From Acidobacteriaceae bacterium (GTDB lineage Bacteria; Acidobacteriota; Terriglobia; Terriglobales; Acidobacteriaceae), in the NCBI GenBank assembly GCA_003132405.1, contig PKXQ01000118.1, positions 1-64,000 of the forward strand: a stretch of 64,000 nt of DNA, given 5' to 3'. The position numbers and the translations under genes were made by a program. Every line of letters begins with the position of its first letter. Position 1 is the first letter of the stretch. Positions 43,627 through 43,740 of this stretch are shown here, in pieces. The notes beneath the pieces are model-generated. The model was not told where the DNA came from and made no database searches. It saw only the letters and a program-made list of their open reading frames with translations.

Positions 43627-43740
43627 TGGTGCCGGGAGCGGGAATTGCACCCGCACGGGACGAATCCCAGCGGCTTCCTCACGGCTCTCAATGAGAGGCG
43701 TCAGGAAGGCCGCCGCGTCTGCTAGTTTCGCCATCCCGGC
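43627..43740 (-). tRNA. tRNA-Leu-like gene with anticodon arm replaced by a long hairpin (114 nt with CCA)
   Basis: GCCGGGA-T-GGCGAAACTAGCAGACGC-G-[44-nt hairpin]-T-GGGA-TTCG-TCCC-GT-GCGGG-TGCAATT-CCCGC-TCCCGGC-A-CCA. Acceptor, D, variable and T stems intact; no normal 7-nt anticodon loop. Confidence 0.8.

Follow-up and report, generated by a model that had tools for sequence, protein, structure and literature searches.

The stretch of DNA analyzed here (64,000 nucleotides of contig PKXQ01000118.1 from an Acidobacteriaceae bacterium, hereafter the window) contains a tRNA-like gene in which a hairpin occupies the place of the anticodon loop. This gene is cargo of an IS1595-family transposon. 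Comparison of sequences gives good support to its membership in a family of transposon-borne tRNAs that combine a leucine-type body with the proline anticodon UGG. Taken as a whole, with its functional part included, the reading of a cargo tRNA-Leu(UGG) with a hairpin that splits its anticodon appears probable. The gene and its parts are as follows.

43627 to 43740, minus strand: tRNA-Leu(UGG)-derived gene of 114 nt with a 44-nt anticodon arm and an encoded CCA (sequence, ARAGORN with introns allowed, comparison).
43670 to 43713, minus strand: extended anticodon arm, 44 nt, 18 bp (fold and sequence).
43679 to 43705, minus strand: 27-nt insert CCTGACGCCTCTCATTGAGAGCCGTGA that separates anticodon positions 34 and 35 (sequence, loop of the relative at L354, shuffles, uniqueness in the genome).
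43638 to 43654, minus strand: T-arm with loop TGCAATT, where G55 replaces U55; its counterpart in the D-loop is A18 (parsed alignment).

Read on the minus strand from 43740 to 43627, the gene is organized as GCCGGGA-TG-GCG..CGC-G-(44-nt arm)-T-GGGA..TCCC-GT-GCGGG TGCAATT CCCGC-TCCCGGC-A-CCA. An initial annotation of this locus had described an intact acceptor stem (GCCGGGA/TCCCGGC), D-arm, variable stem (GGGA/TCCC), T-stem (GCGGG/CCCGC) and CCA, and all of them are seen on this strand, the D-stem being GCG/CGC. The 7/5 acceptor branch, the leucine-type D-arm, the long variable arm and A73 correspond to a tRNA-Leu body. Nucleotides 18 and 55, on which that annotation was silent, deviate, being A and G instead of the usual G18 and U55. 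ARAGORN detects the gene when introns are allowed; the gene goes undetected by ARAGORN without introns and by Rfam at the gathering score. An identity as tRNA-Sec was rejected, the score being 23.2 bits for an Rfam gathering cut-off of 47. The folding of the whole 114-nt RNA has a z-score of about -5, and its unconstrained minimum free energy fold retains the 44-nt arm and loses the T- and D-arms. Because this free fold differs from the cloverleaf, the cloverleaf is supported by comparison and not by free energy.

The arm had been described as an almost continuous 18-bp stem, which is borne out: it consists of 5+5+3+5 bp, interrupted by one bulged C and by G.G and C.C mismatches. Only 1 of 5000 in-place shuffles of the 27-nt insert gave an equally good arm. 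The host genome (G000; 5.7 Mb in 158 contigs, completeness 89%) has a single occurrence of the hairpin, up to three mismatches being allowed. There is no 7-nt loop with a leucine anticodon, the hairpin occupying the loop, and the ancestral anticodon would be UGG. It had been correctly observed that no phase of excision yields a leucine anticodon; one phase yields UGG (Pro), the anticodon found in the transposon relatives. Removal of the 27 nt leaves the loop CTTGGAA, identical to that of G073 (L354). Since excision at the 34/35 site leaves this loop, the window gene can be identified as a tRNA-Leu(UGG) that belongs to a transposon and has its anticodon split by the hairpin; with this split, the RNA in its present form cannot decode.

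An exact UGG loop after excision would also be expected of an intron, whose removal from the precursor would leave a functional tRNA with the loop CTTGGAA. Excision likewise gives UGG at L360, a viral contig, and the group I intron of the cyanobacterial tRNA-Leu(UAA) is located at the same 34/35 site. However, 27 nt is far below the size of a self-splicing group I intron, the bulge-helix-bulge motif is not seen in the fold, no RtcB ligase was found in the 89% complete host genome, and the insert of a further long-arm gene, in G046, does not fit. Excision of an intron is therefore an improbable explanation of the hairpin.

The affiliation of the gene comes from its relatives. Searches with the transposase yielded about 40 related elements in the class, most of them with a repeat like GGAATTATnnnCTTGACAAACCCA and many with a tRNA-like gene. 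Such genes lie inside the elements more often than in the flanks (12 versus 2, P = 5e-6). A tRNA with a 7/5 branch, a leucine-type D-arm, A73 and UGG is found in G105, G331, G607, G485, G602, G606, G524 and G073, and the tRNAs of G144 and G006 resemble this set; in G073 (L354) a repeat separates the tRNA from the transposase, so that the tRNA there may be part of an adjacent element. Scanning IMG/VR with a pattern gave 14 more tRNAs, of which five stand beside an IS1595 transposase, and an IMG/VR scan with the transposase only found a Leu-bodied UGG or AGG tRNA close by in 5 of 80 loci. Leu-bodied tRNAs with UGG, or in one case AGG, thereby adjoin about 18 distinct IS1595 transposases, these last five loci included. 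By comparison, all 104 control Leu-bodied tRNAs from genome contigs have a leucine anticodon (104/104) and none a proline anticodon (0/104).

Within the 28 mobile-element-type tRNAs that were parsed, A73 is invariant (28/28) and the tertiary pair 18:55 is either G:U (19 sequences) or A:G (nine), never mixed; the window gene and its homologue in the genome G009 are of the A:G type. The uninterrupted form of the tRNA is most similar to host tRNA-Leu. As the transposon tRNAs have the end pair G1:C72 and the tRNA-Pro of the host has C1:G72, a leucine identity is more likely for the former than a proline one. Recoding of the transposase by Pro-to-Leu reading found no support, since proline is not overrepresented at leucine positions in the tRNA-bearing elements.

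Other tRNA genes were observed near these transposases. At L369 (6047-6133), a Leu-bodied tRNA with the anticodon AGG, also a proline anticodon, lies 48 bp from an IS1595 transposase. Two viral contigs, L440 (6128-6202) and L448 (4695-4769), have an odd tRNA-Ser(GGA) and an odd tRNA-Thr(UGU), respectively, about 230 bp from IS1595 transposases. A contig of G161 (L299, 1-50) starts within the 3' half of a Leu-like tRNA inside an IS1595 element, and this tRNA may be a break point of the assembly.

The carrier is delimited by the following features.

39876 to 43789: IS1595-family transposon with passenger genes, about 3.9 kb (transposase, inverted repeats, target-site duplication, empty site in relatives).
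39867 to 39875, plus strand: left target-site duplication TAAAAATAT (sequence).
43790 to 43798, plus strand: right target-site duplication TAAAAATAT (sequence).
39878 to 39901, plus strand: left terminal inverted repeat GAATTAGGCACTTGACAAACCCAT (repeat comparison).
43765 to 43788, minus strand: right terminal inverted repeat GAATTATGCCCTTGACAAACCCAT (repeat comparison).
43749 to 43777, minus strand: promoter-like site, with a perfect -35 TTGACA inside the right inverted repeat, a 17-nt spacer and the -10 GACGAT (3/6) (sequence).
39924 to 40910, plus strand: IS1595-family transposase with a zinc ribbon and an ISXO2-like DDE domain (Pfam PF12762, E 9.5e-31; PF12760, E 3.9e-13).
41035 to 41826, plus strand: ORF263, without Pfam match (AlphaFold model with mean pLDDT 78.5 and weak OB-fold likeness).
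41830 to 42315, plus strand: PIN-domain nuclease, which forms an operon-like pair with ORF263 (Pfam; the pair also in G476, G187, G272 and G436).
42483 to 43391, minus strand: passenger DUF3825 protein (Pfam, E 2e-44).

The 9-bp duplication, for about 8 bp expected, lies directly outside both ends, whose exact position is uncertain by one base. The inverted repeats are 24 nt long and 92% complementary, and their motif is common to most related elements. The tRNA-like gene starts 24 nt inward of the right repeat, and the promoter-like -10 ends 8 nt ahead of it. In the other genomes of the genus that were amenable to comparison, argJ is followed after a short distance by an outer-membrane gene, with no tRNA and no transposase in between, and the element of the window sits between these two genes. 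Concerning the passengers, the fold search with ORF263 returned only weak OB-fold-like matches with poor TM-scores, aminoacyl-tRNA synthetases among them, which were not used as evidence. The pair of ORF263 and PIN genes (41035-42315), recurrent in the IS1595 elements of G476, G187, G272 and G436, resembles toxin-antitoxin-type cargo. Outside the transposon, a 27-nt stretch (43883-43909) recurs at 96% in G009, G017, G004 and G018 and may be what is left of another repeat.

A tRNA gene with a hairpin in it resembles one with an inserted palindrome, and the initial annotation had named a disrupted host gene as one case that would overturn its interpretation. According to this view, a host tRNA-Leu gene was disrupted or a repeated palindromic element was inserted. 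However, the host has all five tRNA-Leu isoacceptors intact elsewhere (TAA, TAG, CAA, CAG and GAG), the closest matches to the window gene elsewhere in its genome being ordinary tRNA-Leu genes; the empty sites are devoid of tRNA; the genome has no second copy of the hairpin; and the whole unit sits within a transposon. Both the disruption of a host gene and a repeated palindrome are ruled out on these grounds, with hardly any probability left to them.

The genome G009, from another species of the same genus, has one homologue. This copy (113 nt, 86% identity) lies at an unrelated locus near threonine biosynthesis genes and retains the split, the insert and its flanks (CTTYCTGACG...CGTGAGGAAG). 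Almost the whole tip is replaced, and it still folds into a hairpin, which 11 of 5000 shuffles match. Removal of the insert between nt 34 and 35 leaves CTTGGAA here as well. Outside the tip, six differences separate this copy from that of the window: two disrupt base pairs, two leave a pair as the weaker G-U, and the CCA is lost through another. These differences look derived in G009, and none does in the window copy. We read the G009 gene as a solo relic that would be in decay and the copy in the complete transposon as apparently maintained; a repeat-like sequence upstream of the G009 gene, at about 300 nt, is a weak point of this view.

The G009 copy also bears on whether the gene could be an artefact of a metagenome bin, as might be feared for a host genome fragmented into 158 contigs. 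This independent genome shares the insert and the flanks with real divergence, and further long-arm copies occur in unrelated records; an assembly error is thus ruled out by the G009 copy and has a negligible probability. Searches for more copies by similarity gave little. With the model R1, 399 genomes of the family returned mostly ordinary tRNA-Leu, with no further long-arm copy among the matches listed, behind which weaker copies may be hidden. BLAST searches of plasmids and phages with the window sequence gave nothing useful, and exact patterns from the window copy had no real match in IMG/VR.

Altered arms also occur elsewhere. The long hairpin arm of G046 (L296), which surfaced only via its transposase, belongs to a 119-nt gene with repeats at both ends and TATAAT upstream (6 of 5000 shuffles equally good). 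L360 has a long hairpin arm in a gene of 112 nt (34 of 5000), and G359 (L321) an enlarged loop just inside the right repeat. Among the transposons, a PIN gene is present in 3 of 3 whose anticodon arm or loop is altered, L321 being counted with these, and in 0 of 8 with an intact UGG. This co-occurrence is the sole hint at a role as decoy, antitoxin or nuclease substrate. It can be proposed that the tRNA-like gene is probably transcribed inward from a promoter with its -35 box in the right inverted repeat, and that the transcript would be matured as a tRNA. The RNA could perhaps be leucylated, because leucyl-tRNA synthetase has no need of the anticodon. The mature, non-decoding RNA would then form a stable tRNA-scaffolded hairpin, bound or cut by the PIN nuclease/ORF263 pair of the element, as its RNA partner or decoy. 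Such a function is favoured over others and is put forward tentatively. The initial annotation had suggested a non-decoding mimic of a Leu-type tRNA, with which all results are consistent; that the gene is transposon cargo and belongs to a UGG family lay beyond its view.

Alternatively, the gene may be an inactivated mistranslator. The ancestral tRNA-Leu(UGG) would have put leucine at proline codons at some cost, the hairpin would have switched it off, and a well-preserved pseudogene would remain. This would account for the UGG on a leucine body in the intact relatives, for the inability of a split anticodon to decode and for the decaying copy in G009. On the other hand, the window copy has perfect stems and the CCA, as against six changes in the solo copy, and long hairpin arms are present in at least three distinct lineages (window/G009, L296 and L360) with the remaining tRNA kept. 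A plain pseudogene is possible and, we believe, rather unlikely.

Several observations weigh against the reading of a cargo tRNA with a functional hairpin. The covariation in the arm amounts to two double-sided changes between two sequences (window and G009) and does not exceed that of shuffles. The -10 box GACGAT is weak, and the promoter-like site falls under the threshold of the promoter scan, where it is unlisted. The insert of G046 yields UGG by no single excision. In L321, counted among the three altered-arm elements, the hairpin is weak (356 of 5000 shuffles equally good) and the body of the tRNA is a different one. The correlation with PIN is confounded by transposase phylogeny, the three altered-arm elements being related by their transposases, and PIN is also present in 10 of the 23 elements in which no tRNA was detected. 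A broader view would be that IS1595 transposons carry leucine-charged tRNAs reading proline codons, as a mobile form of deliberate Pro-to-Leu mistranslation or as tRNA mimicry, and that in PIN-bearing elements the hairpin splits the anticodon, so that the RNA would stop decoding and become a partner or decoy of the nuclease. This generalization is doubtful.

Other tRNA-Leu-like genes altered at the anticodon were seen. Many phage contigs of IMG/VR (L449-L528, e.g., L497, L502, L511 and L515) have tRNA-Leu-like genes (AGTCAGG-TG-GCGGAATTGGTAGACGC ... TACAGGTTCGAATCCTGTCCTGACT) where a highly variable stretch of about 20-83 nt stands in place of the anticodon region, and some contigs have two such genes with differing variable parts. 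In Acidobacteriota, many copies of the 5' half of tRNA-Leu(CAA) stop at or just past the anticodon and are followed by unrelated DNA (L068, L072, L074, L075, L080 and L096; likewise L109, L110, L115, L145, L174 and L175). This pattern is expected if integrative elements use the tRNA as an attachment site.

Extra tRNAs with mismatched body and anticodon were already known, and transposons were suspected to be their carriers. The present data define the carrier, namely IS1595 elements, whose ends are mapped, and the mismatch, a leucine body with a proline anticodon. The covarying elbow pair 18:55 argues for a folded, functional tRNA, and natural variants unable to decode exist alongside. Mobile elements thus seem to keep a private kind of tRNA, code-breaking or non-decoding, whose use for mistranslation, as nuclease decoy or as RNA scaffold becomes testable. 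In the open literature searched, which mostly leaves out subscription papers, there was no report of tRNA cargo in IS1595 elements, of tRNA-Leu(UGG) in them or of a hairpin-split anticodon.

Artificial tRNA scaffolds, which are normal tRNAs except for a hairpin grafted onto the anticodon stem, have the same design; these are man-made, whereas the window gene is natural and mobile. The Bacillus cereus pseudo-tRNA tRNAOther adjoins mobile DNA, is not functional in translation and was recruited to regulation (abstract of PMC3399842). It flanks a genomic island, whereas the window gene rides in a transposon, and the abstract mentions no hairpin-split anticodon of the kind described here. The closest known kind is that of the allo-tRNAs, extra bacterial tRNAs, also found in Acidobacteria, in which, as in the window gene, body and anticodon identities disagree; one of them overlaps a transposon-related open reading frame (Mukai et al., 2017, as reviewed in PMC7609411). 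According to the same review, allo-tRNAs have an 8/4 or 9/3 acceptor branch and mostly serine or alanine identity, whereas the window gene has a 7/5 branch, a leucine body and a split UGG. Finally, "transporter IS" of the IS1595 family are described as carrying passenger genes unrelated to transposition (Siguier et al., 2009, as cited in PMC3129680). The window element has a transposase of this same family, and its distinguishing feature is a tRNA as cargo.
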